From: Saccoglossus kowalevskii
Taxonomy: Eukaryota > Hemichordata > Enteropneusta > Harrimaniidae
Length of the DNA: 51,094 nt
Assembly: GCF_000003605.2 (NCBI RefSeq)
Contig: NW_003149767.1
Span: forward strand, 274,281-325,374
Direction: 5' to 3'
Each line of letters opens with the position of its first letter. Position 1 is the stretch's first letter. Position numbers and translations under genes: made by a program. Below the pieces are notes generated by a model that saw only the letters and a list, made by a program, of their open reading frames with translations, ran no database searches and had not been told where the DNA came from. Shown here piece by piece: positions 7,111 to 30,753 of the stretch.

Positions 7111-7119
7111 CAATTTTCT

Positions 7120-7930: not shown

Positions 7931-7977
7931 TTAGCGAAACGAGCCGTTTACTAATTAAATTATTGCCATATTGTGCG

Positions 7978-8030: not shown

Positions 8031-8263
8031 TAGTAGTTAATAGTGTCTGCTAGCAAATAGGAAAGTTCTACCATAATTGTGATGTTCATATGTTGAAATT
8101 GTCTGTTAATTATTGAATGACACCTATCGCAAATAGTAGTCACATGGATGTATGTTTCATGTCACGTATTTGGTTTAGATGTACACTCGATATTTATACT
8201 GTAATTAATGATTCAATTAGAGAGTGTCTGCTAGAAAATATCATAGTTCTACCATAATTATAA

Positions 8264-8580
8264 TTATGTTGCATGAGAACAGCATTCCCTGATGAGGTCA
8301 CAGCCAATCACGTGAAAATCAGCACTCCCTTGGTTTGATTAATGTAAACAGTGGAACACATTGATATGCGTGTACTTTGCTTCGTAAACTGCCGTGACTG
8401 TAAATGTTTTTGTTAGAATTTGAGTTATTCCGAGGTTCTGATCGCTTCTGTAAGTGGCACTAAACCAGCCTGACTTGTCTGGTGAAATTACGACGACAAG
8501 CTTAGAACAGTGTGTCGTATAAGACGCAAGTTACTGAAACTCGACCAACTTCTAGACAAGACAGTCGCCAAGATAGATAG
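8264..8580 (+). promoter_or_regulatory. First-exon/promoter module M1 (start codon lost)
   Basis: This is about 0.3 kb, with strong similarity to module M2: an E-box CACGTG at 8309-8314, then blocks GTAAACAGTGGAACACATTG and GACTTGTCTGGTGAAAT, then a leader ending GTCGCCAAG. Where M2, M4 and M5 have ATGAGTAG|GTAATT, M1 reads ATAGATAG|GTTATT, so the start codon is lost and the donor weakened. It may be inactive or serve as a non-coding first exon. Confidence 0.65.
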
Positions 8581-8867
8581 GTTATTAGTAGTCAATAGTG
8601 TCTGCAAGAAAATAGGGAAGTTCTACAATAATTATGATTTTCATATGTTGAAATTGTCTGTTAATTATTAAATATTGTTTATCACGAATTGTAGTCAATA
8701 CATGTATGTTTCATACCACATAAATTGTGTAGGCGCACACTCAAAATTTGTATTGTTTTTAGTGACTTAATTAGTGTCTACTAGAAAATAGGGAAGTTCT
8801 ACGATAATTATAATATAATATTTTGAAATTGTCTACTAAATATTATATGACACATAGTGAATAGTAG

Positions 8868-9360
8868 TCCGCGGTGGCTTGTATGTAATTTAACAGGAGT
8901 TTCGTCAGTCTACGCGTTGCCACGTAGCATTTAATATCTTTGTGTTCTACACTCCTTTTATGCAGCTTTATTTCCGAGGTAACTATTAAGTATTTTCGAT
9001 GTTTAAATAACAACATTGTTTATTGCAGTAAGCATACTCATAGATGTACAACTTCATTACATGCATACCCGCCACCCTCCTTCAGGTGCATTCGAGCATG
9101 TGGCGGGTGCGCAGATTTCCAGAGGTTTTTAGTCCCGTTATTATTCGGGTTTTCATTTCGGTTTTTGTTTCTGCACGGCTTATGTGCCGCTTTACAGGGA
9201 TTGCAGTTTTTAATATTCTATGTACGATAGTTACTGGTGTTCAATTTCCTCATCTATGTTTAAGTACTTACTACACTTTTTTGTTAATAAATCTTGAGAT
9301 CCGTGTGCTCCTGGCAAAGGGATTACACTCTAATTATCAGTAAGTGCGTAGTTTGATGGT
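8868..9360. repeat. Unidentified insertion of about 0.5 kb between modules M1 and M2
   Basis: It interrupts the 180-bp repeat pattern and is less AT-rich. It contains a 9-bp inverted repeat (ACCCGCCAC at 9067-9075 and GTGGCGGGT at 9100-9108) and an AATAAA near 9288. A 99-codon open frame (9044-9343) has no recognised domain. It could be a short retroelement or solo LTR; no target duplication was identified. Confidence 0.4.
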
Positions 9361-9410
9361 GTGCTCGTATGGTAGAGTGTAAACATAAGGAAGTTCATCC
9401 ATAAATGTAA

Positions 9411-9727
9411 TTATGTTGCATGAGAACAGCACCCCCCGATGACGTTATAGCTAGTCACGTGGGAATCGGCACTCCCCTGGATTGATCAATGTAAACAGTG
9501 GAACACATTGACAAGCGAGGACTTTGCTTCGTAAACTGCTGTGACTGTGAATCATTTTGTTAGAATTTGAGTCATTCGGAGATTGTGATCGCTTCCGCAA
9601 GTAGCGCAAGAATAGTCTGGCTTGTCTGGTGAAATCACGACGACAAGCTCAGAACAGTGTGTCGTATAGGACGGAAGTTACTGAAACCCGACCAACTTCT
9701 AGACAAGACAGTCGCCAAGATGAGTAG
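9411..9727 (+). promoter_or_regulatory. First-exon/promoter module M2 (intact), copy B exon 1
   Basis: E-box CACGTG at 9456-9461. The leader ends GTCGCCAAG, then ATG (9720-9722) AGT AG and donor GTAATT (GT at 9728). The phase-2 end joins exactly to the single G that begins exon 2 at 11205 (AG|G = Arg), giving Met-Ser-Arg-Thr-Gln. This is the only copy B module with both a start codon and a donor, so I choose it as the start. Confidence 0.7.
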
Positions 9728-12700
9728 GTAATTAGTAGTAAATAGTGTCTGCTAGCAAATTATTGAATGTTACCAATCACACATTTTAGTCCATTTATGT
9801 ATATTCATACCACATTAGAGTTATTGGTTCACACTCAATATTATTACTGTAATTGTCCACTAGAGAATAGGGAAGTTCCACGATAATTATAATTTTCAGA
9901 TTTTGAAATTGTCTACTAATTATTAAATATCGCAAATTGTAGTCTATGCATGTATGTTTCATACCACATAAGTGGTATGTGTGCACAATCAATATTTTTA
10001 TTGTAATCTGTGTCTTAATTATTGAGTATCTGCTAGAATATAGTGAGGTTCTGCCATAATTACAATTTCCATTTTAAAAATTATTCAATTCAATTTAAAA
10101 ATTATTCAATATTACAAATATTACCAATTGCAGAGCGTGCACTTATGGGTCATACCACATAAATGGTATAGGTGCACACTACCATAATTTTGATTTCCAT
10201 ATTTCAAACTTGTCTGCTTATCATTAAATGTTCCCTATCACAAATTGTAGACAATAAATTTATGTTTCATACTACTCAGTATATTAAGTAATATATTAGG
10301 AATAATGTTTATATACACGCACATTTCATTACACTTTCAAAGGAAGTGAATTCATTTATTGTAATTACTGTTTAAATGGATATTAGCCATTCACATTATT
10401 ATATTGAAATCAAACCATGATTACCTAATGAAAAATAATATGATAAACATTTATTCTAAGCATTGTTGATAAACTGTGGCTGCCAGTGTTTCTGCTAGCT
10501 CCCACTGTCTTCTGTAAGTGTGTGCACCATACTGTAGTCCCTAAACTTCACGACAACGGCATGTTTTAAAAATCGTATCTAATTTTCACTTCCGGGTTTA
10601 ATCTTGCACACGTTAAGTGGCTTGGAGACAAAAGCATACTGGTATACGCCCTTGAAGACAACTACTTTCTTGGGGTTATGCATATACCGTATTTGCTGTA
10701 ATAATTAATAGCGCATAGTTTTGCAGTTATATTAATGAAAATAGTGAATCTGTGATCAAAAATCAGTCACAATCCAATTGTTGTGCACTTGTATTTCTAA
10801 TAAAGCAAATACAAGAATAAATTGCACTCTGAGATCATCCCTGTTGCATTATTGGTGTTAGGAGTAGGATTACTGAGAGAAATATTTGATGGTTAACATT
10901 TTTGAACAATTCGGGAAATACATGTACTAATAATAAATGCATGTAAACTCAATGTTAGTGATAGCTTTCGCTGACCATTTGCTGATTGATTGTTCAGATT
11001 CACAAATATTCACATCTGTTTCGCATTTTCTGCATAGTCGGTTTTTAGATTCAATTTCAGGTTTTCTCGTTTTTCCTAAGTTCAATTTTTAAATTTGAGT
11101 GTATGTACATTATGGCGTCTTATTCGAGTTGTCATTTGAGGGCCTGTGTCTTACTGTATTATTATAATGATGTTTATTTATAGTGAATCTCCATACCTTA
11201 ACAGGACTCAAGGTCAACCACAGTTTGCATGTACCCACGGACAGCAATCATACCCACCGAACCAGGGGCAGCAACCAAGTAAAGTTCTCGATGATGACCC
11301 AGATGAGAACCCAAATCCACAGGTACGCACGATCAATCAGAGTTTATTATATTAGATAAAAAAAAACTTGATCAAATCTGGCCTGCAGCAGACCCTGTGG
11401 CCAAATAACAACACTATACAGATCGTTATTCCAAATCCAGAGATAATCTAATTCTTTTGTGCAACTTTGATTATTTGTTGTAACGCATGTAATCACTATT
11501 GATATTGACATTGAAACTAATGTGCCAACAGGCAGGAAATTTCCTTTGCTAATGTGGTTATTCTAGTTACGAGCGCTTTCAAAATTATTTGCGGATTTTA
11601 CATAGAGATTCAAAGTTATTGAGTACGATGCCAGAAAAAATATTCACTAGATTTGATCTGGTTTGAGTCTGAAGTTCGGCAAACTAGATTTCACGGTGTT
11701 CAACATATATTTTCAATCCCAGCATTAAATTTACCTATTCCACAGCGAAAACTAGTATGCATCTCAAAGTACCATCCACTTCCTGGATTGACCTCTGTAT
11801 GTAACCATTTGTCCATGTGTCCGTGCGTGTATTTGTACGGACCTACTAGTATATCTTGGACATACCAGGACCAATTACATTCAAACTTCAATTTGTTCCA
11901 CGATCTGATTCAAGAACCCCGAAAAGCGGTCATTTGTGTACTGAAAAATTATCAAAATCAAACATCGCTCAGCTTCAGATGATTTTTGTTCAAACTTGGT
12001 ATATACATTGCACATTATGGGAACTTGATGCACGTCATTTTGTTTTTTTTATATCAGATTCAAAATGTAGCCATTTTGTTTTAATGAATGCGACTCTGGT
12101 GCCATATCTCTAACATGTTTTAACTGATTATGTTTAAATTTTAAATATTCATTATACATCATATCATAGATATGCCGCTCCCCCAAGCCTTTACCAATAT
12201 AATGAGAACATGGGAATACCTAACTGTAAACCGAAGGGTTCATCTCTATTGTATGACAAAGTGAGCAATTTTTTAGGACATCCAGCCCTGCTGTTGCTAC
12301 AAATTAGTCTGCCTTTTAAACAATATTGTGCAAAAAAACTGACCTTCGAGCGCGGGTGGGGGGGGGNNNNNNNNNNNNNNNNNNNNNNNNNNNNNNNNNN
12401 NNNNNNNNNNNNNNNNNNNNNNNNNNNNNNNNNNNNNNNNNNNNNNNNNNNNNNNNNNNNNNCCGTGGGGGAAATCCATGGAAACTCTATTTCAGGTTTT
12501 CAAATTGGTACAAAAATGAATGCTCCCAAAAAATAACTGTTCTACGTTTGAGGGCATGATGAAAAGTCTATCATTCCATTTAAATTGTTATCAATCTGGA
12601 CCCTTTGAATTTTCTTGGGCTAGAGAGGGACGCCCGGGGGTTAGGTGATAACTTAAGAATATCAAGTTAATACTAAGTAAGGCTATTACCTTTAAGGTAA

Positions 12701-15700
12701 GAGTTCAGACTGCTATGGTTGTTAGGTTAAGAATATTAAGACCATTACAGATATTAGGTGTTTATAACGGATATTCTCAACCTTTCATTTGCACCCAATA
12801 AATTATTGTCCGAAGCAGTTACAGCCTGTATGTTAGTGTCTCTGATTTTCCCTTCAAAATCCACTCAAAAACGCAAGAAATTACGTTTCAGAAAGTTCAA
12901 TTTTCACTTTTTTCCGAGGAAGCATGCCCTCGGACACGCATAGGAAGCTCCCGGCTTCGGCGCTCAATGGTCCCTCACGAAGTAAAAAGAACCACCCCCC
13001 CTCCCAACAAAATCCTGGCTACGGACAGGAACGACTGCATGCTCAGTAAATGATTTGTTCACACTCCTACCATTTCATACTGGGGTTGTGCCATGTATGG
13101 CTTGTTATTTGTTATTGTGCCATACTCATTCGACTCATGCCCGACTAAGTGTCCAACTCCCAATTTTAAGGGATTTCTGTTTTTGTGGTCACGTTTGATT
13201 AGGCGCCCACCCCTTCTGAAACATCTTAAATTAAACTGTCATTCATGAAATTATTGATCGACGCGCAAACCTTGGTGGCAGCTATGTTTGTTTTTATTAT
13301 TAGAGAATGCTTACACGCGTAATCAATCCATATTTTGAATTCGCATTTCCTAATATGGTAGGATGAAAATACTCTGTAAAATACCGCAAAATCATTTCAG
13401 GCATACTTTTCCTAACAAATATTTGTCAAAAATCAATAAATATGTGACAACAAGTGATATATTTTTAACCTGTATTTGTTAGTTTGAATTACCCATGGTC
13501 TTCATTAATATCTAGATTCTGAACAGACAAGGTTGTATGTTTATTTTGAATATTCTGCCAGATCTCCATTCCCAAGGTCAGTTTATCGTAGTTATGTTGT
13601 TTTATTATTAAATATTCCGCATTAAAATATTATTCATATTCAGCCTCCATCACCGTCAGTCCCACCGCTTGAGGAATTGAACCAGTTTTCAGGGTATGGA
13701 AATATGGATGGTACACCATTACAGCCACCTCCTAGCTACAATGAAGCGCTGCATTTACCGCCACCACAGAGCCAAGATATTACGACAACGTAACTAATTT
13801 CTACATTATTTTTATTGTTAATAATTATGTTTTCTCAAGCATTACGATATGTTTTATTAGGACAACAGATAAAAATGATAGAATGAAAAATAATGAATTT
13901 GTATTACTAGTAACATTTATTTCTGAAATGTCAATTTTGTAAGCTTGTTGGATTCTTGCATCATTTGTTTTGCAGAGTACCAGTTGTTTCTGAAGAACAA
14001 GCGAGAACTGCATTGCTCAACCATGTTTCTCAAAATTGCTGTTTCGGTTCGAAAGCAGCAAACAAAATGAAATTCACCAATATTCTTCCATCAAGTGCAT
14101 TCCATGTAAGTTAGTTGTGTGTGGCACATGCAAATGTTCTAATTCAGTTATGCATGGTTAAGGCTTGTATATTTTTAGAACGCGCAATGTAATCATACTA
14201 TGCCCATATTATGATTACATTATGTATATACTTCACATTGTTCGAGTGTGGTTTAATTGACTTGATAATGTTATGTACTGTTCCAGCAATGTTTGCTTGG
14301 AGAATGCCTGTAGTCTATACCGTCTTTTTGCTGAAATTGACACATACATTTTTAATTTACAACATTGTTGTGCATAATTTGTGTTACTTTTGTGATGTGA
14401 TTTCTCTCTCTCAGTATTCATTGGAATCCTACACTGAGAAAAGGTCACCTAAATGGGCCTATGAACCATACCATGGTGAGTAAGTATTAATATTCTACAT
14501 ATATGGTGTTTTCAATATAAACTGTAACTTCAGACATAATTTTGCATATTTTTTTTATAAATTGTGCAATTTTATTCCATATATGGTGACTTTGTGAGAG
14601 GTTATGCAAATTTATTCCATATATGGTGACTTTGTGAGAGTTTATGCAAATTTGTTCCATATATAGTGACTTTGTGAGAGTTTATGCAAATTTGATCCAT
14701 ATATGAAATACGCTTCTAAACAATAAGGATCATTTGCTTGAAAGCCACACTCTAGTAAACAGCTCCAGCCAAGCTCCGGTAAAGACGTGTTTGTATGTGA
14801 TATATGTGACTATGAATATCACAGCAGTGATTATATATAGTATTTATGACAATAGTGTACAAGTTGAGATTTTCTCGGATAACTGTCAAAAATATGAACC
14901 GAAAAACACTACTAAGCTTGAATAATTAACTATTATCAGATTGCGTCATCTGAACTCATTTACACATTTCCTAATGCTTTTCTCATTATCACATCATCAT
15001 AGTGGATTCAACGTAGACAATGAAAATCGTCTTCTCACATTTAAACAGAGAATACGAGCCAGAAATAACCCTAGTCGTGTTTTAATTAAATGAATAATGT
15101 GTTTAGTATTATTAACTGTTACTGTTACTTAATTTGTGATATAGAACGTATTCCGGAAATAGCGTAGCATATGACAGTAAATGGGACAGGAATTAGACTC
15201 CTCGCACCAGACGATCTCGAGAATTTCCGATGATGAATCGAAAATGTTACATGTGTACAATTTAATTCATTTTTGTTTTCTCTAAAATTATTTGTTTTAA
15301 ACTGAATCTAGCTTTTATAGTCACATTAACAGGTGACTAATGACTAAAATGATTTTAGATAATACAACTTCCGACTTTCCTTGTCTAACTGGCCACGTGC
15401 ACATTAGTTAGTTTTATTTTACATTACAAATGACTGTGGTCGGTCATCAGGTTTTCGCACGCAGTGATGCATCGTTTCGAATTTATTATCTTTACTATTG
15501 CCACGTATCAGTAGCAGCATTTATTCGAGCAAAAGTATGAACGCTGTGCAGTGAGCTTGACAACATCCTAAGCATACGTGCATAATGTTCATCGCCTTTG
15601 CATCGTAGTTCAACGATACATGGTGGCAAATGGATGTGATTTGTTGAAATAAACGTAGTTCAAATAAATGGTCAATGCCACATCACTTTGTAACACGTTT

Positions 15701-18700
15701 CATATTAGCTAGTCATTACGGAATGCCTATGCAGCTCAGGTCTGTATCCTATCGAGGAAAGTCTGACTGGTCCGTTATATACTTTGATGCGTATGGGTAT
15801 TAGTGCTATCAGCTTGTACACTACGAATTTCTGTAAATTGCCACATACACACACCTATCATTTACATATTTATGCATACATTTAAAAAAATAACATTTGT
15901 ATTATGCTAGAACTATTCCATTTATCATTTCACTTTGAATGCTTTCAATAAAAGGGCAAGTAATTGATGGTCCATTCAATGGTGCAGCGCCATTTCCGTG
16001 GGATATAGAGGCAAGACCTCCTGCATTATTTCAGTCGCACACTGTAAATAGGGAAGTACCACATACAGCATCTATCAAGGTAATTAACCCCCCTGTAATG
16101 TGTTTTGATTATTTTGAGTTATTGCTATGAATTTTTATTTATAAATATCTTCGAAATAATCTACCCTTATTTGGGTATCGCAGTGCCTATTAAGAATGCT
16201 GATATCCCACCCAACATTACTCTGTGGCATGATCTTACTGTGACAGATGAAATTTAAAATGAAATATTTTTATGTTTAGCCTTGTCATGACTGTATTGGT
16301 CTGGGTAGAAAACGGTGCTGTAACTGTCGTGGTAAAGGAATGGTAAGTTAAAGTTATCGTCAATATTTAGTAATAGTCATTGTGTCTGGAAATATATTGA
16401 GTTACAATTCTACATGACTGTACTGGTTCTTGGTCTTAGCCCCTTAAAATCTGGGCTTGAACACAAACAAGTAAGGGGTCAACCCGTTAGAATCTGGTAC
16501 TAGTAACTTGTGTGAGTTTGTCACAGACAGTGGGAATGTCAAATAAATTGGCTGACATACATTAACCAACAATAATTTTTGGGAATCCCGTTTATTTTAG
16601 GTCCAAATGCAGACCAGGATGTAGTCTATTCAATTGACATTTACATGTCCATTCAGTATGTGTTTTCTTAAAATCTACTAAGCATGAAATTATCAAAATT
16701 AGTTTATATATTAATTTTGAATCTGGTACGTGTATCTAAATTGTAATTTCTTATTCATAGTTCCAACCTGAGTTATGTATGGGATCGCAAACATTTGGTG
16801 TCATTATGAAAAAAAGTACAAAATTTATTGTCTGTGTTGATGTCTGCGATTTCCTATAAATCAACTATTTTACACACATTGTTAATTTCCCCATTTCAAC
16901 TCGCTGAAGTATATGTATTCAATTATTCAATTAAACCACACTACCTATGGAGAGTGAATTATTTTTCATTTTTTCTGACACTGTAACCACCCTCAGCAAT
17001 CTCTATAGATATGATGTATATCATTTCAGACTCGATGCAAAAAATGCAAAGGGCGTGGTTATACATTTGACTACAGGATTAACAATGAGAGACGCCATTG
17101 TGACAGTTGTAATAGCCGTGGGAGAGTAAGGTGAGAAGCTTGTTTGCTTTAAAGTATATAATACCCAACTTGGAAGTATTTAAATAAGATTAGATTCCTG
17201 GCTATTAGGATGCTGATAAGATTGAATAACTTTACGGTACATGGTACATTATTATTAGATGGCGTACTCTTCACGAACACATTTCAATCTATACCTAATG
17301 CATGAGAAGATTTCTGTAATTATTTCGGTAATCTGCAAAGCTTTGTTTTTATTGATATTTTTTAGTTTAGGTTTGTTTCTGTTGTTCGCCTGTAAGTACA
17401 TGTATGTTTTCGAAGATATTAAAAAATGCAGTGTGCAGAGTAAGAAATACTCCTGGATCATTTTATTGTACACAGTGCATGTCTGCAAAAGAAAACAAAT
17501 GATTGTTCTTCATGTCTACAGGTGCTCTGTCTGCAATGCTCATGGTCAAACTGAGTGTCTTACGTGTAATGCTAGGGGTCAACTGAAGTGCTTCATCAGA
17601 CTGACTATTGAATGGTAATCTTTTATTTATTAATTTACACAGCTTATGACTTCAACATATTCTTTTTCTACTGAATATAAAACAACTAATTGGCTGAATG
17701 GGAAAGCAACCTTTTTATGCATATTAGAATAAATGCAGTTGCCAGTCGTTTATTGATAATAATCGTTTATCGAAAAAAACATCTGTGAACCAAGTTTTGA
17801 TGATTTTGTTTAATGTTTTTTTTTATCAGAAGGGACCTTATTTAATACATCAAATTTGGGAGTTTTGCATTCGATTTTGTGAAATCAGAAAACTCTATTA
17901 CACATCCTTTAGTTACTTACATGCACATGCTTCTTGCCATTTATTGTACCATAAGTGCGATGCATTATGGGAGAACTGCGATTCAGTATGGCTTCATTAT
18001 AAAATAGCAACACCTCGAGATCTGATATATTTAGTCGCCGTTGGGACATGGTCCGAAAACGAGGACTTATGGATCCAACTTTGTTCGTGCGTCTGGACCT
18101 ATATCTTAGACATGCCTGGATCGATTATCGGTATATTCAAACTTTACACATACATCATACATGATATTATACATATGCACATCAATTTAATTCACGCTCT
18201 TATTCAAGATTGCTGAATGGTGGCCATTTTTTGTGCAAAAACGTCATCGAAAACTAGGTATTACTGGCATTCCGGTATCGAGATCAAATTATGGGACCTT
18301 GATGCACAGCAATTTTCTTTTTCAGATCGGATTGAAATTGGCCGACTAGAGGCCATTTTGTTTTAAAGAATGTGGTTCTAGTGCCACATCTCGAACATGC
18401 ATAGACTGATTATGTTCAAATTTTATATACTCATTATATATCATGTCATAAATATATTGACATATTGGTTTGACAATCCGATTCGAAATTGCTGAATGCC
18501 GGCAATTTTTGTGCTAAAAAATAATCAGAAATTAAGCATTTCTGACATTCATGAATGAATTTCGTTCAAATCATGTGCATACATTAGACATTATTGGTCC
18601 TTGATGTACATCATTTTGTTTTTCAGATCGGATTTAAAATGGTTGACTGGCGCCTATTTTGTTTTAATGAATGCGGTTCCAGAGTCTGGAATGCTGACAT

Positions 18701-21700
18701 GCTTTTACTGATTATGTTAAAATTTTATATATTTATCATGTCATAAATATACAGATGCATGGTGGCCATTTTGTATTAATTAATGCTGTTGCAGGGCAAT
18801 ATCCCTCAATATGGACAAGTAGTCATTTGATGATCTGATACAAGATGACTGAATGTCAACCGTTTCAATATTAAAATTCATAATCAAGCATCAGCTTCTG
18901 GATCCATATCTCTGGCATTTTTATGTTCCAACTATATTACTATAAACAAAACCATGTATCTTAAATTTAATAACTAATGGAGACTGTGCCAGGCATGACT
19001 TGTGATTAATTTCCTGTGGACATACACATGTTGTTGTTATTATAATTATTGATTATTTTTATTTCAACTAGGGTTGTTCACCATGATGACCATGTTGTGG
19101 AAAGAACTTCATTGCCGGATGAATTAATTCGCACTGTGTCTGGTGAGACTGTCTTCAAACAGGAACTTCCTAGGGTGAGTTTTGAGAATTAGAGAGAGTA
19201 TATATCAAGGTTTTCAATTTCAAGTTATATTAAGGCTAAGTTTATATATATCATATACTGATGAGGCAACAAGCTCATTTCCTTGATATTTATAATAAAT
19301 GTGCAGTGCACAATAATGTTATTTCGCCAGCTAATATAAACATCTCGTTTCAGTTGCATTCATGAAATTGATAAATACATGCGTGTATAAAAACCTAAGG
19401 AATGGGTTTGTTGTATCAACAGTATACAAACTTCTGTGAAACTTATCAACTTAAACAATCTGATGATTGAAAGAGCTCTACTGTTCTTTAAAAACATTGT
19501 GTTAGCCAAGTCATGCAGTGGTCAGCCACAATTCAAAACGCAGTTCACCCACACACAAAAAACACAGTTTTGTTCTGGCTGTTATGGACATGCCACATAA
19601 CTTCATCAAATTGCTTACACCCAATTCCCGATTTCTGAATTACCGTTAGACGCGATGTAATTATATATTTGCGCATGTGTAAACTACCTAGCAGCGAGCG
19701 AGGGTAGGACAAAGGTATACAAATTCAAAAGAGTACCAGCAGACATGTTACCCGGAAGAAGCCAACGGCATATTTTGAACAGTTTTTTTTATGGAGAGTA
19801 TGGGTGGGTACAAATGAGGGCAGTTGTAACAAATAATTTTTCAGAGAAAATGGACTGAAATAGAGATAGTACGTGTGTGTTTCACAGAGTAAATATGACA
19901 TAGTTTCCAAATCTGTCCGATCTTCCGGTTTGTTGACCCCAGATCACGCAATATGCGAAAGCACACAAACGATGAACGCACAAATGCTATCAAATCGGGA
20001 ATCGGGAATTCAAATGTCAAATATATATTCTATAATTTCACATATTGCCATTTATCCCCCTATTTTTTAAGTTATTTACCTCTCGTATATTAATCAGACT
20101 AATAGTTTTTAAGAAGTAAAAATTGTACTAAGTCATTATGTGATAAAATTTACATAATATTATTTTAAATCAGGCAGAGATAGTCGATCCAAATACCTAC
20201 AACAAATGTACATATCAAGTATCACTGCAAATTATCATTTATTACTATAAATATCAAAATATATGCTAAAAATAGAATGGTATGAATGGTATGGTCGACA
20301 TGAAAACAATTGTCAGAGGCTCACCAATGTACATGTACCTTCAAATAAATGGTGAGTTTTCAAGAATGAGTCAACAATTATTTTTTTACCAGAACTGACA
20401 AAATATTTGCTAAAAATAGAGAAGTTAATATATTTTCAAAAATTAACAAATCTGTCAATAGGTTCATGGTCCCATGATACCTACATATTTAGTATCAAAT
20501 CAATGAGGCTGTTTACAAGAATACAAGAAGAAGACGAAAATATAACAAGAGTGTGAAAAAATATTTGCTAAAACAGAGAATTATTGATATCGACACGACA
20601 CACAGGTCCACCCAAGGTACCTAATATGTATTGGTACTATCAAAGCAATTTGGCTGGTATTTTTCAAGAAGAAGTAAAACATTTAATAGGTTATGAACAA
20701 CGGAAAGCCACCTATATGAACAACGCTTGCAGAGCTAAAAAATATATCAGATATAACATATTTGCTCTATAATCATATTGTTAATAGAATATGGTATATG
20801 AGAGACATTTACAGAAATGTATAGAAAACTATTGTAGATGGTTATATGTTAATGAGTCTGTAACAATAATGTTTTATAAAAGTTAAAATATCATTGAGTT
20901 CTATTTGTCCCCACAAACGCCATTGAATAGTCAATTTCCCATCAATGGAATTTAAATAGTTTACAGTATTGGTGTGGTCAAAGAAGGTTGAATTACTATA
21001 TTAATTACCAGGGTGTTCCGGTTCAAAATTACTAATATTCTAATGATTCAGTATACACTAAGTTATTGTTCTTCTGTAATACAGCAAGTAAGGTATCAGA
21101 AACTATTGTAAGGAACAGAAATATTTGTTTTAAAGTAGAAATTGTATAAACCATAATATGTGTATTTTTATGTATCAATAGGTTTGGCCAATAAATCATT
21201 TTCCAGATGTGAATATCATTGAAGCATCAAACAATTTGGTGCAGCGTCACCTGACTGGTTTTCAAGCAGAACGTGTTATAATGCAGGTATAGTCTTTTAT
21301 TTTTACTAAAATCTAAGTCAGGGGAAGCCCTGCGATCTCATCGATTTTCCTCAACGTTATGTAACACGTGGCCGATGTCAAGAGGTCGTCGCCATCTTGT
21401 TCACTCTCTGTTTTCTCTTCACCAAGTGTGAATCATAGAAAAACTCTCCTATGGCCGTTGGTAACAGTAAAACTTGTACTTTTCTTGGCCAACGAGAAGA
21501 AAGGAAGCACTCGTAGAAGAGCTCCACACCTCCTGTGTTGCCATCCCAATAGTCAACTCGGTCTTGCAGAATTACCACAGGGATTTCCCGGGCTGGACCC
21601 CATCATAGATTTCATTCATATTTGGAATGTGTGCACGGTTTGGATTTTTTTGCCACGAGGTTGTGTGTTCAAATTGGAATGCTAAGACTGGGATAAGTTC

Positions 21701-24700
21701 CGAATTCTGGTTCGGCATGCCGTCAGTTCTATTTGCCATGGGGGCATGAGTGAGAGGAGTGCTAGTATAGGTAGGAAGTCCTCCCGTTTGTCTACCAGTA
21801 CCTCAGGTACTGTGTTGGCAAGTGGGGGGGTGGACCCAAGCCCAAGATTTCTCTTCCCTTGACCGGAGGACATCCTCGCAGCCAGCAATGATGAGGTAGT
21901 ACCCCTATGGTCCTTCTGTCGATCCTTCCTCACAAGCTGCAGGTTGAGCGTGTTGCCTCCACTGCAGTTGCCTCTCTGTCGGCGAACAGGAAAAATGACA
22001 CTAGGAACCTTGCATTCAAACGAGGCTTCCTCTCGTGATCCCAGCTCCGACCTCCCCAGCGATTGGGAAGCAGGAGGCGCGCCACCTGGTAGTACTGGCC
22101 TCCACCAACGATGACAGGGAGGCTGGCAGGCAGGCAGGCACCGAGAACATTAGTTTCATCTCTCCCTCGCTTCCTGCAAGCCAGGGATCATCTGTCTTAG
22201 ACAGTATCAGGGGTCTTTCATAGAGCACTTCCTCCTTTATGGAAAACTCCCCCTTCAAGGAAGCAATCGGTCATAGTGTCACTATGTTGATACCCTCATC
22301 TTTGATTCTGAAGCAGCCACTCTCAAAAGCATCATAGCTTCTGGGATTCCTGATGGTGGGATCCAAGGAAACACTTTTGGTGAATTGGTGAATATGGCAA
22401 AGGGCACATAAAACCAGCAGAGTCTAGAGACAACACTGATACTATCCCTCCATTCCTTCCCCCAAACATAGGTAGCACAAACTTTTGTTCAGTGGGACAG
22501 GTAAAAGGGGATGGCCATGTTCTGTGGAATTTCTCAGCATCTTAGCCAGAAACAGTACATCATAACCTGAGCGATTCATTATTACGGTGCATCTCCAGGG
22601 CTCTGAAGTCTCAGAGGCGGAATGCACAATCCTCCTAGACTAGCAGACACATTTGTTGGTGGGACATCACACAGCTATGTGTGATATCCTGCAGTGTCAT
22701 CTGGCTCATTTGGCAGGGGCTACCTCTGTGCAGTAGGATGTGGTTTTGGCAGCTTGTGTTTTTGCCGGTGAAACGAGTCAAAGGGAGTGTCATCGCCTCA
22801 ATTACACAGACTGAATCTCCTCCACCCTCTTTGATGTGGGAGATGGAAGGCGCAGCTACGAAGCTTCAGGAACCCAATGACCAGATAGTACAAGTGGAAT
22901 CCCTAAGCCAGTGGGCTGCTGTCATAGGCTAGATGATGGGACCCCTAGGGCAGAAAACGCAAGAGCACCCACTTGCCAGAAGCTGGAAAACGCCCCTACT
23001 CTCCCGCGGCAGAGAGGAGAAGAGGGGCTCCCACAGGAAGAAGGGACTGGTGGCTGAACCTCCTCCATTGCTATCTCCGCCTCCCCTGTTGATGTCCCTG
23101 TTGGGGGTGCTCCCAGGGTGATCTGGAGACAATCCGACAGAAGGTAGACAGTTTGCTTACAAAAGGCGCCATACACAATACCATGCGACAAGTCAGGCAT
23201 CTACACACATGTGTTTGTAGCTCCAAAACTATAGGTGGCCAGCGTCTAGTTCTGGATCTAAGCAAGCTAAATCAGTATGTGCTCCTTCATCGGCTCGGCA
23301 TTGAGACGCCAATCACTGTTTTACTCTCTGTGCACCATTTTGATTGGTTAGTCTCGCTAGACTTAAATGCTTACCGGCACATACCAACCCATGCGAATCA
23401 TTGACTTATACACACACCGTCTGTTACCTAGACGACTGGCTGCTACACAACCAAATCATGGGGGTTATTGGTCAAGCAGGTAAAGTAGGATTTACTACGC
23501 CAATCGCCCAACACCTTGTTTGCTTTTCTGGGCATGCAACACATTTTGTAACTCTCTCAAGTGAGGGATGCCTTGCTCTGGTGAATCTCAATTGTCAACC
23601 TCATGCAGGGACCCCACAGCTGTGACTTCGATAACAGATGCCTCCATCACAGGAAAGTGCACCTAATATACGAACAAGTCCAAGGAACATGGCCACTGCA
23701 TTGGATTCAGGGTCGCCATATCAATCAGCTGAAACTGAAAGCAGTACACTTAGCACTGATACACTGATATTCATAGATCAGTGATACAGAGTTCTGCTGC
23801 TCTGCGCAGACAACACAGCGATGGTCTCCTACATCAACAAGGAAAGGGGACCAAATCACCAATGATGTCAGCTCTGGTGGAGCAAATTGTCAACTGTCAA
23901 GCAGACGCCCTCTTGCGGCGACTCCATTTCCAGGACATAGAGTGGCAGGTACCACACTGGGTAGCCTCCAGCCTGTTTCCCAAGACCTATTCGCCTCACC
24001 CCAGAATACTAATCTCTTCCTACTAGCTCCCGCCTCTGGGATGCATCACTCTGAGAAAGAAGCCTTGTCCTTCTCGGAGGATTGTGTCACTTTTATGGAC
24101 AATCAAGCTGTGCTAATACCACAAATCAAGTTTCTCACCAAGAACCAAGTCCCAGAGCACGATCCACAGCTGATTGTCGTCCCCTGTTTGGCCAGTATTG
24201 TTGGCCCTGGGGATCAGGAGGAGATGAGTCTATGCACGGTTGGAGCTTTGAGTTGCTATGAGAGATGTACTGGGGAGTTGAGGCAAGGCAGCAAGCACAT
24301 GTTTATGTGTTTGTTCAAGGGACTAGTAAGCAGAATAGACCAGTCGCCCCGACTTCCATTTCTAGGTTGATCACTTCGACAGTGTTTGAGGTTTACAACC
24401 GACTGGCATTCTCAACACATGGTCTACAGAAACACCAAGTACAGGTGCATGAGATTTGTGCGATCGCCAACCTATTAGCTTTTGTATCAGGTGATCCCTC
24501 GAATACTTAGTAAGGCTTCTGAAGATCGCAAATTGTCTTTAATAATTATTAGGTCTTTTTAGGGTGGGTGCCATCATCGCGGGTCAGACTTTGAATGTTG
24601 ACCCATCCCAGATGACAACAGGTATCCATGCGCATAAGCAATAGAGCAGTATCGACTACGAATGTGTGTGCTCTTTGTATATTTCCAGGTCTTGTTTCGG

Positions 24701-25514
24701 CATATGCCCACACGCAGATCTGTTTCGGTCTCTTCTTTTTGGAATGCTACTCAACCCAACAATTATGTTTGGGTCTGGTGTATATGGGCAATGCCACCCT
24801 GTCAGTATATATAAATATAAGGCAAGATGGCGCTGACTTCTTGACCTTGGTCACGCATTACGTGACGTGGAGGAAAATTTATGAGGTAATGGGGCTTCCC
24901 CTTACCTAGATTTCTCTCCGTCATTGGCTGAATTGCAGATTAATGCCTACAGTTCAAAATAGTCATTTTGACCTGACAGAGTCTATCGTGGGTATGAACT
25001 AGGTGAATAGGTGGGTTTAAAACCTTCGACCTGAATCTGTCAGATTCTGTGTATGAATAAGGGGTTGATATCTCGCTTGCACAATTTGTTCTCTGGTATT
25101 CCATCCACCATTTATACTGCTAAATCCCCCCTACGCAGATGAAATTGGAACGTTTTTACCCTCAGGCATCCAAGTTTCTAATGGTTTAACTCTAATCTGT
25201 GTATACAAAGCCAAATTTATGGAAATCCACTTATAAACACACTCATTTGTGGGCATTTACAAGATGCTGACAAATTACTGTCACATTTACATACATACTT
25301 ATACTTATACATATGTTTATTACATTTATTTAAATTAAAATATTCTTCTTAACCATTTTATTTTCAGCGTCAAAAAGTTCGAGCTGTTCCGGTTGCTAAC
25401 ATCCATTGTCAATGGAAGAACAACAGTTTCTCGTACTTCGTATATGGATTTGAACACAAAGTGCATGCACCAGACTACCCCCAGCAGTGCTGCTGTGGAT
25501 GTGCAGTACTGTAA
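9720..25514 (+). CDS. SSUH2: SSUH2-like gene, copy B, complete (12 coding exons, 399 aa)
   Basis: Exons: 9720-9727, 11205-11322, 13644-13789, 13976-14105, 14415-14475, 15955-16079, 16280-16342, 17030-17130, 17522-17614, 19072-19174, 21182-21286, 25368-25514 (TAA). All have AG/GT boundaries and phases that join without a stop, totalling 400 codons. Residues 1-90 are proline/glutamine-rich and probably disordered, with a PPSY (PPxY) motif at 71-74. Six CxxC motifs follow at 198, 209, 220, 241, 252 and 263, several in CxxCxGxG form, a DnaJ-like zinc-binding core. Then comes the SSUH2 C-terminal domain ending HAPDYPQQCCCGC. Biochemical role unknown; human SSUH2 has been linked to dentin formation. 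Introns hold a DIRS element (intron 11), a dispersed repeat (intron 9) and a sequence gap (intron 2). Identification is strong; the tiny first exon is inferred from phase and conservation. Confidence 0.9.
10310..11204 (+). other. Copy B intron 1, unique part
   Basis: AT-rich intron sequence that aligns with 31540-33413 of copy C (for example TCACTTCCGGGT and ATACCGTATTTGCT). No exon is needed here because exon 1 and exon 2 are in phase. Confidence 0.55.
11800..12170 (+). repeat. Dispersed repeat family R (partial copy), copy B intron 2
   Basis: It shares blocks GTCCGTGCGTGTATTTGTAC, ACATTGCACATTATGGGA and ATTCAAAATGTAGCCATTTTG with repeats at 18030-18990, 33880-34170 and (reverse orientation) 47170-47790. 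The copy in the matching intron of copy C shows that this insertion predates the B/C duplication. Confidence 0.6.
12367..12462. other. Assembly gap (96 N)
   Basis: A run of N within copy B intron 2, directly after a G homopolymer that probably broke the assembly. No gene content can be inferred. Confidence 0.99.
12600..13250. repeat. Probable interspersed repeat in copy B intron 2
   Basis: A locally G+C-rich block (GACGCCCGGGGGTTAGG near 12629; TCCCGGCTTCGGCGCTC near 12948; a C-rich run near 12994) ending AATCCTGGCTACGGAC. It has no counterpart in copy C intron 2, which is about half as long. It is likely a transposable-element insertion of unknown class. Confidence 0.35.
14573..14705 (+). 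repeat. 40-bp minisatellite in copy B intron 5
   Basis: Just over three units of TATTCCATATATGGTGACTT followed by TGTGAGAGGTTATGCAAATT, starting 97 bp after exon 5. A homologous array sits at the same place in copy C (35481-35660). Confidence 0.85.
18030..18990 (+). repeat. Dispersed repeat family R, near full-length, copy B intron 9
   Basis: An insertion of about 0.95 kb absent from the matching copy C intron. It starts around GTGCGTCTGGACCTATATCT and ends near GGAGACTGTGCCAGGCATGA. Inside are about three diverged subrepeats of roughly 200 bp carrying GGCCATTTTGTTTTAA and GACTGATTATGTTCAAATTT. Both ends are found in inverted order at 47170-47790, which supports a defined element. No coding frame was recognised. 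Confidence 0.6.
21315..24985 (+). mobile_element. DIRS-like retrotransposon remnant in copy B intron 11
   Basis: Blocks run in the order expected for DIRS elements. A reverse transcriptase piece (23200-23410) contains IGGQRLVLDLSKLNQYV and WLVSLDLNAY. An RNase H-like piece (23630-23910) contains LLCADNTAMVSYIN in one frame. A tyrosine recombinase piece (24040-24510) contains ALSFSEDCVTFMDNQAVL, VPEHDPQ and HEICAIANLLAF. The right inverted terminal repeat (about 24860-24985) matches that of the copy A element; the outer part of the left one is deleted. Frames are broken by stops and shifts, so it is inactive. G+C is higher than in the flanks. Confidence 0.8.
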
Positions 25515-26050: not shown

Positions 26051-26060
26051 TCAACAATTT

Positions 26061-26527
26061 TTATTTGTTATAATCTATTGACTCGCTTTGCAAGTCAAGA
26101 ACTTTCCCTGAAACGTCACCTAGCTCAGTTACTCCTTTAGAAGGCAGAAAACTCGCATAAAAAGGCATGAAAGAAGTTGGCAATGTTCGTGGGTCACATT
26201 GGAAAGCCTGAAGCTGAGAGGAAGCGATAACACTTGTGATGTTATAAAGTAGTATAATGGAAATGAGGCAAACTCAAGAAGAACTTGTCACCTGCAAGCG
26301 AAATCTTAGTGGTAACAGGCTGTTCTAATACCACAACATCCAGGCCAATATGAATAACAACAGTTTGGTTATTCTTGCTATAATCGGATTGCCCGAGCCA
26401 GCGATGAGAATGTAATTTCACATCTGAAATAGAAAGTGTACCCCTCAAACTTTGGAAAGGGTGGGTCAAATCTAACAATGTGTGCGTGTGAATAAATCTG
26501 CGACCAAAACACCGAGTGTATTTTCAA
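26061..26527 (-). other. Unidentified coding-looking segment, minus strand
   Basis: On the minus strand an open frame from about 26527 to 26242 includes FIHTHTLLDLTHPFQSLRG, VKLHSHRWLGQSDYS and IGLDVVVLEQPVTTKISLAG. A second frame, ending at TAA 26061-26063, includes SQLQAFQCDPRTLPTSFM and GVTELGDVSGKVLDLQSE and is followed at once by AATAAA on that strand. Composition looks protein-like, but the two parts are in different frames. It could be a gene remnant, two exons, or part of a transposon. I do not recognise the family; a trypsin-like reading of VVVLEQPV is too weak to claim. Confidence 0.3.
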
Positions 26528-26639
26528 TGTGTCAGAGTCAGAAATCTATTTTGTACAACAATTGGGTTGAATATACGTGACAGTTTTTCAACAGTGATTC
26601 AAGTAATCGGTTAAATGTGTTGTGCTCTCGTGCTCAATA

Positions 26640-27050
26640 TTTTTAGTGGAATTTGTGTTTAATTAGTGAATGTGTGCTGAAAAAAATATACAATAATTAT
26701 GATTTCCATATTTTTAAATTGTCCACGAATTATTAAATGTTATCTGTCACAAATATAGTCAATGTTTCATACCACATTAGAGATATAGGTACACGTTTTA
26801 TTATAATTAGTGTCTTAATTAGTTAGTGTTAGCCAGAAAACAGGGTTTTTCTACCATAATTATGACATCCACATTTTGAAATATTCAACTAATTATTAAA
26901 TATTAACTATCCCAAATAGTAGTCCATGCATGTATGTTTCATAGCACATAAATGGTTTAGATGCACACTCAATATTTTTACTGTAATTAGTGTCTTAATT
27001 AGAGAGTGTCTGCTACAAAATATGGAAGTTCTATCATAATTATAATTATT
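26640..27050 (+). repeat. 180-bp-type repeats, upstream of module M3
   Basis: The same repeated words as in 8030-10310 (GTGTCTTAATTAG, ATGCATGTATGTTTCATAGC, CACTCAATATTTTTACTGTA). This is the left part of the copy C upstream array, cut off from the rest by the Crypton-like insertion. Confidence 0.65.
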
Positions 27051-27163
27051 TCGCATGAGAACAGCACCCCCTGATAAGGTTACAGCAAGTCACGTGAGAA
27101 TCTGCGAATGTGAATCATTTTGGTAAGATTTGAGTCTTTCGCAGGTATTGGTCGCTTTTATAA

Positions 27164-29112
27164 CATGCCTTCATCTTTCCGCCAATTAAACACACACTTT
27201 AGAATAGGAATACCCGGGGATTGTTGCGGTCCGGTGAGCCATGTACGGACCGTCGTCAATAGCGACAGAGAGGTCCAATGATCAAAGAATTCGCGGAACT
27301 ACTTTCGTTTGCTTGGAGAAAATTTATAAAAAATAAAAATGACAATTATGATGATGTTAATATTCAATATTTTAATAAAAGTTTGCAACCACACGCAAAT
27401 CCAATTTTACAACAATAAAAACAGCTCACATCGGATACATGAGCTTGTCAACCAAAAATGAAATTCAAACAATCGCAAAAGTTCAACAACTTGCGACAAC
27501 AGTGCATACTAATTTAAAATCGGCAAGTTCTAATCAACTTCCTGGCTAAATTCTGAGCTAGTGTTAATAACCCGTATACGACTGAATTTGTATGATTTAA
27601 CACAAATTAAATTGGTGCCACATACTTCCACGTTCCCGGTTACAGTTACATTCATTGTAATGGCGCCGGCGAACATATTCTGAAACTTGTCATTTTCGGT
27701 TCCCATTGGTGAGACAGGGTAAAGTTTATTTATACCTTGATCGCGAGGTACAACTTGCTTGTATGCAGCGCTCAAAATATACAATAATTCTTTCCGTGAT
27801 CGTAGTGTTGGAGACTAGCTAGATTCTGGTGACCGGTCAATTTTGCAATTTTATGGACAGCGACACCAGCAGAAGACAAACGTTTCACGCAAGTCTTGCG
27901 CAAAGAATGATTAAATTTTCGACCGGATATACCAGTCAAACGTGTAGCATCTACCATCAATTTTCCGAGGTTATTCTTTCCGAGCGGTCGTAGATAATAC
28001 CATACACCAGACTTGATCAATTGTGGTGGAAGTGAAGTCCGAGTCGGGCTTGCAGGCAGTGGGTGGTCGATGTTTTATGTACTCAAAATATAGTGATACT
28101 GGGTCTCGCCCGCTGTTTCCAGGAGTTGAAAACATCTTCGCAGTGAATTCTCGTACGTTTGCTGTTGTCCCATCTCTGCGTTTCGTACTTCTCTCGTGAA
28201 ATTCTAAATATTCAGTACCACCTGCATCATGACCAACGACGATATTGCAGTTGCCGGTGCTCCTGCCGACCTCTCATGCCGTAATGTTTGCCAAAATGAA
28301 AAAAACATTGTGAAATTAGCACTTTTAAATTAGTGTTATGGATTCGCAGCACACCGGTTTGCCCATAACTTCCTTAGCCGAGATTTTTTCCGATCTGTGC
28401 TCTTTTCTACCCTTTCCTTGACCTTTGACATCGACTTGTTTTGCTCGTATATCTTGATTTAATTTGTGGAAAATTCGATCATTTAGATGTATATTAATTA
28501 TCGCGAAGATAGCGCTCCAAACTACACATCACGTTGGCGATGGAAGCTGGCTCATATTCGTCTCCGTCCTTCTTCTTCTTTATTCTGATGAAAATTTTGC
28601 CCAGAAGCTCATTCAACTCGACCGGTGGTATGTCTTTGAGACGTCGCAATTGTCCGGTATTCTGAGTTAACCACTCGATACAGCGACAGACAACACGTTC
28701 TGTGGTTTTTAACAGTACTTCTGGTGTTCTTTTATAAAACCGTCCACTTCGTCTGGTACTTCGTTTTCTGGTGCTGGTCCAGGAATTTCATCAAGTTTGC
28801 CCTGTCTTATCGACCGCAACCACTGCATAATATCCATTTTCTCTGCTGCAGCCATTATCTTCTGCGGGTTGTTAAGGGAGCCGGTTAAAAGGAGCAGTAA
28901 ACATATCCATCCGCAGTGCCAAACTTCTCGATTAACGCGATTGCATGCAAAACTTTTTACTGCTCATAAAAAATTATCTTTTTACCAATAAGAATTACCT
29001 TTAAACATTAAGATATAAACCCTGTATTCTTTATTTTATTAAAGGCATGTAATAAAAGTACCCTCGCGCAAGGAGGTGATTTTCCCTCCTCGGGCACAAA
29101 CGCCCATATTCA
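27164..29112 (-). mobile_element. Crypton-like element with decayed tyrosine recombinase
   Basis: The insertion limits are set by comparison with uninterrupted modules. On the minus strand, from ATG 28853-28855, pieces in several frames recall the DUF3504/ZMYM-type Crypton recombinase family: VELNELLGKIF and EYEPASIANVMCSLERYLRD (about 28480-28640), HFGKHYGMRGRQEHR (about 28245-28300), EYLEFHERSTKRRDG and DPVSLYFEYIKHRPP (about 28060-28220), then the catalytic region NHSLRKTCVKRL, KLTGHQN and SLQHYDH (27790-27920). A C-terminal tail (27530-27784) reads FQNMFAGAITMNVTVTG. At least three frameshifts separate these. No terminal repeats were seen, as expected for Cryptons. Confidence 0.75.
27530..28855 (-). 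pseudogene. Tyrosine recombinase pseudogene of the Crypton-like element
   Basis: This is the coding remnant within the insertion. Visible catalytic residues include the HSLRK arginine, the GHQN histidine and the HYDH tyrosine, all in the frame 27772-28020. Frame changes occur near 27780, 28030 and 28235, and an in-frame stop occurs near 28745. Unlike the host SSUH2 exons it has no splice-consistent structure that would repair these breaks. The N-terminal block with MAAAEKMDIMQWL marks the likely original start. Confidence 0.7.
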
Positions 29113-29502
29113 GTGACGCTAAACTAGCCTGACTTGTCTGGTGAAATCACGATGACAAACTCAGAACAGTGTGTCGTATAAGACGCAAGTTACTGAAACT
29201 CGACCAACTTCTACACAAGGTAGTCGCCAAGATGAGTAGTTAATTAGTAGTAAATAGTGTATGCTCGCGAAAAGGGAAATTCTCCTATAATTATGATTTT
29301 CATATGTTCAAATTGTCTGTTAATTATTAAGTGTCATCTATCACAAATTATAGACACCTATCGCAAATAGTAATCCATGCATTATGTTTCTTACCACGTG
29401 TTTGGTTCAGGTGCACCCTTAATATTTTCACTGTAATTAGTGACGTAATTAGAGAGTGCCTGCTAGAAAATAGGGAAGTGCAACCATAATTATAACTTTG
29501 TT

Positions 29503-29806
29503 GCATGAAAACAGCACCCACTGATGACCTTATAGCTAGTCACGTGAAAATCAGCACTCCCCTTGTTTCACTAGTGTAAACAGTAGAAAACATTGACATG
29601 CGAGAACTTTGCTTCGTATACTGCTGTGCCTGTGAATCATTTCGTTTCGAGTCATTCGGGATTCAGGTCGCTTCTGTAAGTGGCGTTAAACTAGCCTGAC
29701 TTGTTTCGTGAAATCACGACAACAAGATCAGAACAGTGTGTCGTATAAGACGCAAGTTACTGAAACTCGACCAACTTCTAGACAAGACAGTCACCAAGAT
29801 GAGTAG
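29503..29806 (+). promoter_or_regulatory. First-exon/promoter module M4 (intact)
   Basis: E-box CACGTG at 29541-29546. The leader ends GTCACCAAG, then ATG 29799-29801, AGT AG and donor GTAATT (GT 29807). Phase 2 fits copy C exon 2 (AG|G, Arg). It is a candidate alternative first exon of copy C. Confidence 0.65.
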
Positions 29807-30473
29807 GTAATTAGTATTAAATAGTGTATTCTACTATCTACTGTAATTATGATTTTCATTTTCACCTATCACAAATTGTAATCCATGCATTTATGTTTCA
29901 CACCACATGAATGGTGTAGGTGCACACTCAATATTTGTATTGTAATTAGTGTATTAATCAGTATGTGTCTGCTAAAAAACAAGGAAGTTCTACGACAATT
30001 ATGATTTCCATATTTTGAAATTTTCTGCAAATTATTAACTGACACCTATCGCAAATAGTAGTCCATGCCTGTATGTTTCATACCACATAAGTAGTACAGG
30101 TGCACAGTCAATATTTGTATTGTAACTAGTGACTTAATTAGTGAATGTCTGCTAGAAAATAGGGACGTTCTACCATAATTATAATTTTCATATTTTGAAT
30201 ATTTGGGCTAATTATAAAATGTCATCCATCTCAAATTATAATCCATGCATTTATGTTCTATATTACATAAATGGTGGAGGTGCACACTCAATATTTGTAT
30301 TGTAATTAGTGATTTAATCAGTTTGTGTCTGCTAAACAAAACAGGCAAGTTCTACGATAATTATGATTTCCATATTTTGAAATTGTCTTCAAATTATTGA
30401 ATGACACCTATCGCAAATAGTAGTCCATGCATGTATGTTTCTTACTACGTGTTTGGTTTAGGTGTACACTCAA

Positions 30474-30753
30474 TAGCTAGTCACGTGAGAATCCACACTC
30501 TCCTCGTTTCACCAATGTAAACAATAAAACACATTGATATGCGTGGACTTTGCTTCGTAAACTGCTGTAAATGTGACTCATTTTGTTAGAATTTGAATAA
30601 TTCGGAGGTTCTGGTCGCTTCTGTAAGTGACGCTAAACTAGCCTGACTTGTCTGGTGAAATCACGACGACAAGCTTAGAACAGTGTGTCGTATAGGACGC
30701 AAGGTACTGAAACTCGACCAACTTCTAGACAAGGCAGTCACCAAGATGAGTAG
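30474..30753 (+). promoter_or_regulatory. First-exon/promoter module M5 (intact start and donor)
   Basis: E-box CACGTG at 30482-30487, close to the module's left edge; the block upstream of the E-box present in M1, M2 and M4 is missing. ATG 30746-30748, AGT AG, donor GTAATT (GT 30754). It is the nearest intact module to copy C exon 2 and my default start for copy C. Confidence 0.65.

Follow-up and report, generated by a model that had tools for sequence, protein, structure and literature searches.

The window considered here is a stretch of 51,094 nucleotides from the hemichordate Saccoglossus kowalevskii (contig NW_003149767.1; G000:C3978:274281-325374), and the genome searched with it comprises 572 Mb in 4,830 contigs. 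Comparison of the window with itself revealed three tandem gene copies in units of about 20 kb: gene A, represented by its 3′ end (window 1 to about 5740), followed by genes B and C. Upstream of exon 2 of both B and C lie several copies of a segment of about 0.3 kb, called a module below, which looks like a duplicated promoter with a first exon that encodes only Met-Ser-Arg. The modules stand among repeats of about 180 bp that belong to a dispersed element. Models of B and C, with 12 exons each, were built by joining exons on splice sites and phase, and their positions in the window are as follows.

9720 to 25514, forward strand: gene B, 12-exon model of 399 amino acids, SSUH2-like and cysteine-rich, with its start in module M2
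11205 to 11322, forward strand: exon 2 of gene B, phase 2
30746 to 41219, forward strand: gene C, 12-exon model starting from module M5 (or from M4 at 29799), with a broken frame in exon 11
33414 to 33531, forward strand: exon 2 of gene C, phase 2

The translation of gene B is uninterrupted over its 399 codons, with ATGAGTAG as exon 1. The name SSUH2 was given to these genes by the first-pass annotation, a reading of the letters made without database searches, and it agrees with what we take to be features of that family, namely cysteine-rich CxxCxGxG-like repeats, which the protein carries. Weak matches to DnaJ-type cysteine-rich chains were found (E 0.012 and 0.015), and a Pfam scan of the protein from a provisional exon joining returned no families. 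A protein search of the genome gave 32 matches, 24 within the window and 8 on contigs C845, C4660, C4617, and C3610; the latter SSUH2-like matches are 34-47% identical and too diverged for comparing an exon of three codons.

Modules were located by blastn against the window, using as queries the pieces that the first-pass annotation had proposed. All five copies that it had named were found at their places, and a remnant of a sixth (M0) joins them.

8026 to 8115, forward strand: M0, what is left of a sixth module; an intron start of module type, GTAATTAGTAGTTAATAG, preceded by sequence not clearly related to the module
8264 to 8586, forward strand: M1, promoter-like segment and exon 1 relic that has lost its ATG; ATAGATAG at 8573-8580, then GTTATT (blastn 8264-8574)
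9411 to 9733, forward strand: M2, intact; exon 1 ATGAGTAG at 9720-9727, donor GTAATT at 9728 (blastn 9411-9727)
9665 and 9456, forward strand: sequence motifs of M2, TATAGG and E-box CACGTG, respectively
27044 to 27163, forward strand: 5′ half of M3 (blastn), with a 66-bp internal deletion
27164 to 29111, reverse strand: insertion splitting M3, with pieces of a tyrosine-recombinase open reading frame (ORF)
29112 to 29245, forward strand: 3′ half of M3; ATGAGTAG kept, donor GT lost (TTAATT; blastn 29112-29239)
29499 to 29812, forward strand: M4, intact; exon 1 ATGAGTAG at 29799-29806, TATAAG at 29744, E-box at 29541 (blastn 29499-29806)
30473 to 30759, forward strand: M5, intact from module position 38 on; exon 1 ATGAGTAG at 30746-30753 (blastn 30473-30753)
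30691 and 30482, forward strand: sequence motifs of M5, TATAGG and E-box, respectively

Whole modules are 84-88% alike by blastn, and the 3′ half of M3 is 94% identical to M5. Three copies were said to keep ATGAGTAG followed by GTAATT in a phase that fits exon 2, and M2, M4, and M5 do so. The string ATGAGTAGGTAATT is present exactly at three places in the window (9720, 29799, and 30746, in M2, M4, and M5), and with up to two mismatches it has six matches, four of them in modules, when 0.63 would be expected and six was reached in none of 100 shuffles. The damage described for the other two copies was likewise borne out. M1 reads ATAGATAG/GTTATT, where the slash marks the end of the exon, and thus has no ATG while its GT is still present. 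M3 reads ATGAGTAG/TTAATT, which leaves it without a donor, and it is split by a transposon as well as shortened by the 66-bp deletion. The insert in M3 measures 1.95 kb; one of the four reverse-strand ORF pieces scanned matches Phage_integrase (E 9e-9), and two more resemble DUF3504 (0.024) and QRICH1 (0.0041) without reaching the curated cut-offs. By these matches the insert is a tyrosine-recombinase element, presumably a Crypton-like one.

Whether the module is a dispersed repeat was examined by searches of the whole genome, which skip very common words and do not reach stretches given as N, among them the 30 kb to the left and the 20 kb to the right of the window. With M1 as the query, all six matches fell inside the window, and with the 123-bp 3′ core of M2 all five did. 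The module as a repeat scattered over unrelated loci, which the first-pass annotation had named as the finding that would overturn its proposal, is rejected on both searches within this range. The module series is real and apparently specific to this locus.

The case for a first exon rests on phase and on the comparison of copies. Because ATGAGTAG has 8 nt, exon 2 must be entered in phase 2, and joined to exon 2 at 11205 or 33414 in this phase it gives an open frame. M2, M4, and M5 each have the ATG, phase 2, and a GT donor and could each be joined to exon 2, and M0, M1, and M3 could not. All three intact copies would give the same N-terminus, Met-Ser-Arg, as had been proposed. GTAATT also serves as the donor after exon 6 in both B and C. 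First-exon candidates were defined as an ATG with an open frame, phase 2, and a donor scoring at least as high as that of M2, upstream of exon 2, and were compared without gaps. There were 12 in B and 5 in C, and the only pairs with at least 65% identity were M2-M4 (0.91) and M2-M5 (0.69), M5 having two extra bases directly after its donor. From the TATA-like box to the ATG, 6 of 57 columns are variable, compared with 58 of the 208 remaining module columns (M1, M2, M4, and M5, with M3 left out; Fisher p 0.005). The least variable window of 57 columns is 9651-9707 with four variable columns (p 0.009, 5000 permutations). The E-box CACGTG is present in M1, M2, the 5′ half of M3, M4, and M5. The TATA-like box and the low variation support promoter activity of the modules, which would make them duplicated promoters with first exons, and the true start of B and of C is probably at least one module copy per gene.

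The alternative that the modules are inert and that B and C start elsewhere is distinctly improbable in our judgment. Such a start could lie in the conserved 3′ part of intron 1, for example at an in-frame ATGATG at 11167 (B) or 33376 (C) that runs unspliced into exon 2. The frame of exon 2 is indeed open at least from 11155 in B and 33364 in C, 13 of the 16 residues before exon 2 are alike, and the stretch before exon 2 (11018-11204) is conserved, with a divergence K of 0.103. However, the start of intron 2 (0.105) and exon 4 together with the following intron (0.095) are conserved to a similar degree, and a good acceptor (cttaacag/G) is retained in both genes. With inert modules, their phase, ATG, donor, and conserved core would all be coincidence.

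A profile of the ~180-bp repeat has 20 matches in the window, all on the forward strand, and these surround the modules and continue into intron 1 of both genes.

8027 to 10275, forward strand: ~180-bp units around M1 and M2, the inner part of the dispersed element, with M1, another repeat (about 8869-9385), and M2 set into them
10274 to 10525, forward strand: outer arm of the element in intron 1 of gene B, mostly 77-79% identical to copies elsewhere
26617 to 27047, forward strand: ~180-bp units upstream of M3, from the profile search
29241 to 30975, forward strand: ~180-bp units on either side of M4 and M5, as far as an assembly gap (30976-31537)
31540 to 31570, forward strand: short remainder (stub) of the outer arm, in intron 1 of gene C

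The other repeat between M1 and M2 (8869-9385) is a dispersed repeat of about 0.5 kb with 38 matches in the genome including its own, the longest of the others being about 80% identical.

The junctions between repeat and module follow a common pattern. Repeat matches end at unit position 141-143 directly before M1, M3, and M4; the left flank of M2 is cut by the other repeat, yet it ends in the same letters, and M5 starts later in the module and is joined to unit position 68. On the right, M1, M3, and M5 are followed by repeat matches that restart at unit position 90-98, and behind M2 and M4, with their shortened flanks, the restart is at position 1; alignment by eye places the first repeat base after the module at position 77. 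Where modules have TAG/GTAATT, plain repeat units have ACT/GTAATT; of 49 distinct units at nine loci elsewhere, 47 have GTAATT exactly at this homologous site. Since plain units carry GTAATT at the same place, the homology between module-bearing and plain repeat DNA starts at the exon/intron boundary. On this comparison the intron side of the donor, GTAATT, is repeat sequence, and it would have been brought by the element and not the reverse. A longer module-type intron start, TTAGTAGTnAATAGTGTCTGC, is found at five places in the window, exactly in M0, M1, and M2 and with one mismatch in M3 and M5; M4 differs from it more than the other modules do. Elsewhere in the genome it occurs once with one mismatch (contig C260, locus L045), at a locus without the repeat and without a significant module match, although the pattern itself was not recovered in the stretch compared.

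These junctions also bear on the idea that the extra modules are what remains of whole gene copies whose bodies were deleted, which we regard as very improbable. In its favor, the locus is a tandem array of A, B, and C in ~20-kb units. Yet what lies between the modules is repeat units, with no intron 1 proper and no exons 2-12 detected by self-comparison (E 1e-8, more than 100 bp), and the rest is two inserted elements. The one common repeat stop before M1, M3, and M4 is what local exchange predicts.

M0 has the intron start of the modules, and its left side is not clearly similar to them. The proposal that the 113 bp on its left are a diverged module found no support in local alignment against 300 shuffles (p 0.11, 0.89, 0.03, and 0.21 with M1, M2, M4, and M5, respectively). 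The segment 7911-8025, with a TATAAAA at 7978, reaches precisely to a donor of module type (CCG/GTAATTAG) and may represent another, noncoding first exon that shares this donor. Left of it is a dispersed element ending near 7910, and 7600-7910 is part of this highly repeated element, for which 647 candidate places were found; among the 40 that were scored, its own included, the others are 92-95% identical.

In contrast to the module, the 180-bp unit is a dispersed repeat. Searching the genome with it gave at least 93 matches, 84 outside and 9 inside the window (a lower bound, with 24 of 27 candidates scored), and long arrays are present on several contigs. Repeat loci elsewhere were studied in 15 stretches from other contigs. 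Of the 18 arrays in these stretches, 3 are truncated by a gap or by the end of the contig. Nine of the 15 uncut arrays end at unit position 87-88, four at 71-82, and two at 165 and 172. A shared arm of about 250 bp follows 13 of these arrays, and not the two that end at 165 and 172. Eight of the 15 stretches contain the motif that ends the arm, with 10 occurrences in all; a T comes next in 9 of these, and unrelated DNA lies beyond. Genome-wide the motif has 15 occurrences with up to three mismatches versus none for the reversed pattern. The starts of the arrays vary; L063, L069, and L076 share a left flank. Both ends of the element, in inverted orientation with the repeat arms facing each other, are found in L064 (1-4301) and L065 (1-2401). 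The two inverted arms agree in 238 of 262 columns in the first and 234 of 263 in the second, and the 9-bp flanks outside the arms match at 8 of 9 and 7 of 9 positions at one common offset. These are 2 of the 15 stretches, and the rest hold one end or none. From these two copies the element appears to be a foldback-type DNA transposon with long inverted ends that contain the repeats and with target duplication. A 9-bp duplication presumably recalls the Mutator-like superfamily, which we treat as a lead only.

Helentrons of the Pacific oyster, the Cg_HINE elements, were considered for comparison, as the relevant passages of their description report dispersed elements whose center is an array of satellite-like repeats of ~140-180 bp, sometimes located in noncoding parts of genes (PMC7492417). 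The element described here resembles them in being dispersed and in carrying a satellite-like repeat array. As far as that description goes, the left and right modules of Cg_HINE are not alike, and Helitrons insert without a target duplication, whereas two copies here have inverted arms with facing repeats and 9-bp flanking duplications. A classification as Helentron or HINE was dropped because inverted arms with 9-bp flanks were found instead of distinct left and right modules.

Intron 1 of B carries the ~250-bp arm behind its array, and intron 1 of C a stub of it, so the element was probably present before B and C separated. How many modules were already there can be approached through their flanks. 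In a tree of the 240 bp after the donors, M2 is grouped with M5 (bootstrap 100), and M0 and M3 stand apart from the rest (82). In a tree of repeat units, the unit after M2 joins the unit after M5 (93). The repeats are arranged alike in M0-M1 and M3-M4, and an alignment of 8027-8870 to 29241-30064 reaches 76%. Taken together, this suggests a pairing of M0 with M3, M1 with M4, and M2 with M5, among which only M2 with M5 is firm. Given that this correspondence alone is firm, we put two or three modules before the B/C gene duplication, which they probably predate. The divergences are 0.151 for M2-M5 (0.141 for their flank), 0.158 for the bodies of M1 and M4, and 0.103-0.175 for intron 1. These module and intron 1 values agree with the synonymous divergence of exons 1-10 of B and C (dS 0.161, nonsynonymous dN 0.102, dN/dS 0.63); exon 12 alone gives dS 0.072 and dN 0.113 over 29 synonymous sites. 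The first-pass annotation had modules being gained and lost within the 180-bp repeats. Two or three of the modules are probably older than the B/C duplication, and losses make up most of the visible events after it, with M0, M1, and M3 broken. The membership of the repeats in a dispersed element, the repeat origin of the intron side of the donor, the remnant M0, and the low variation from TATA-like box to ATG were additions to that annotation.

The history that we consider reasonably probable is that promoter/first-exon copies arose by unequal exchange in the repeats of the element, have mostly been decaying, and are used, at least one per gene. The module would be the promoter of an SSUH2-like gene together with its first coding exon, 8 nt that encode Met-Ser-Arg and give phase 2. 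A mobile element containing long arrays of the ~180-bp repeats would have become placed directly behind exon 1 in an ancestor of B and C, and the first intron bases, including the donor GTAATT, would thereby be element-derived. Unequal exchange between similar repeats may then have copied the module together with flanking units, and two or three modules would have formed before the ~20-kb gene duplication into B and C. Most copies would have decayed since, leaving M2 intact in B and M4 and M5 in C, a gene that itself looks damaged. Transcription would start from the intact module or modules near the TATA-like box, and exon 1 would be spliced to exon 2 across repeat-derived DNA, and any intact module would give the same protein. 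Extra copies would be largely neutral.

Several observations weigh against this history. Relative to a matrix made from the genes' own 20 donors, which themselves score 5.1-11.8, the M2 donor TAG/GTAATT is low at 5.45, and 18 of the 382 GT sites upstream in 5800-11200 score as high. The TATA-like box reads TATAGG in M2 and M5. The core from TATA-like box to ATG is as similar in the broken M1 and M3 as in the intact copies, and its low variation may reflect exchange between copies or recent damage instead of selection. The left side of M0 is not module, yet it stops exactly at the donor. With regard to the pairing, the unit preceding M1 resembles the one preceding M3 (87%) more than the one preceding M4 (81%), and the unit before M5 groups with the unit before M4 (74%). 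The M0-M1/M3-M4 interval has a K of 0.241 and the downstream flank of M1 and M4 one of 0.33 (60 bp), both above the other divergences. The module bodies give an unresolved tree (M4 with M5 at 64) that does not contain the M2-M5 grouping of the flanks, so that exchange between copies or near-simultaneous duplication must be assumed. Finally, the array of gene C enters the gap at 30976-31537, so copy number there may be misassembled. This last point is also what favors an assembly artefact, in which the modules would be allelic or mis-joined products of repeat assembly. That explanation has hardly any probability, since whole modules are 12-16% different, flanks and lesions are particular to each module, and both B and C are preceded by more than one copy.

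The first-pass annotation knew of no described case in this family. For SSUH2 none showed in the titles and abstract openings listed, and the listings on splice donors or exonization from satellite DNA and on satellite DNA with first exons and unequal crossing, with subscription journals largely outside the search, yielded no comparable case. The statement may hold for the family, but not for the arrangement as such, which has been described for PEP1, the FLC orthologue of Arabis alpina. According to the relevant parts of the two reports, a tandem duplication of about 2 kb there contains exon 1 with parts of the promoter and intron 1, both exon 1 copies are spliced to one exon 2, the predicted proteins are identical in accession Paj, and one copy is lost in accession Tot (PMC3527215, PMC7927791). 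The evidence in those parts comes from complementary DNA (cDNA) and rapid amplification of 5′ cDNA ends (5′ RACE), with separate starts (PMC3527215). As in PEP1, the repeated segment here holds a first exon with flanking promoter and intron sequence and precedes a common exon 2. Unlike PEP1, with two copies of a ~2-kb unit in those reports, there are here five modules and a remnant, in units of about 0.3 kb with an 8-nt coding exon, lying in mobile-element repeats; the PEP1 arrangement was shown by cDNA and 5′ RACE, whereas the one described here is known from sequence alone. PEP1 is a close precedent. Variable first exons of UGT1, GCNT2, and the protocadherins are, in the sections of a paper on them that apply, tandem duplicates before shared downstream exons, for which birth-and-death evolution and gene conversion are discussed (PMC1885805). 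The modules share with the UGT1 and protocadherin arrays, as portrayed there, tandem first exons that precede one set of downstream exons. Unlike those arrays, in which the first exons provide different N-terminal domains, the three intact copies here all give Met-Ser-Arg and no protein diversity is possible.

That copies giving one and the same N-terminus tune expression was part of the first-pass proposal, and it leads to an adaptive account in which the modules are used as alternative promoters in different tissues or conditions and their number is selected for expression. M4 and M5 are both intact, the core from TATA-like box to ATG is conserved among copies, and the PEP1 precedent, as far as the pertinent sections go, has two tandem first exons with an identical predicted protein in one accession and distinct starts and expression (PMC3527215). 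Set against this is the state of the genes themselves. Gene C, alone in having two intact modules, has 2 nt fewer in exon 11 (40533-40635) than A and B; its frame is open up to that exon, and the ordinary junction after it runs into a stop. Its exon 8 has an in-frame deletion of 11 codons and its exon 10 an in-frame insertion of 6 codons, and dN/dS relative to B is 0.63 over exons 1-10. Gene C may be decaying or using another donor. Moreover, gene B has only one intact module, and three of the six module positions (M0, M1, and M3) are broken. Expression tuning by copies is conjectural and is weakened by the damage to gene C, and we regard the adaptive account as rather unlikely.

Two further repeats flank the genes. 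A minisatellite of 50 bp (TGTAACAGGTCTGCTCCATCAGACATGCAGCATAC...) with about 47 copies occupies 41792-44132 downstream of gene C, and similar short pieces follow gene A (about 5660-5736). In the 3′ flank of gene A, at 4875-5261, a unit of 192 bp is present twice with 98% identity, which is a recent duplication.

The principle of such a locus is not new, as PEP1 demonstrates tandem first-exon duplication and variable first-exon clusters are well known. What the modules of S. kowalevskii would offer is a concrete route to the multiplication of a host promoter through mobile-element repeats, which can also contribute a splice site. Only tentatively can this be extended to the more general idea that a satellite-like arm captured a host promoter and first exon and now provides the 5′ splice site. 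The gene start would then act as a satellite monomer whose copy number goes up and down through unequal exchange while the protein stays the same, and promoter dosage at this locus would be expandable and probably polymorphic. If the modules do start transcripts, the locus would be a natural test of how copying of a promoter and first exon affects expression dosage, uncoupled from protein change.

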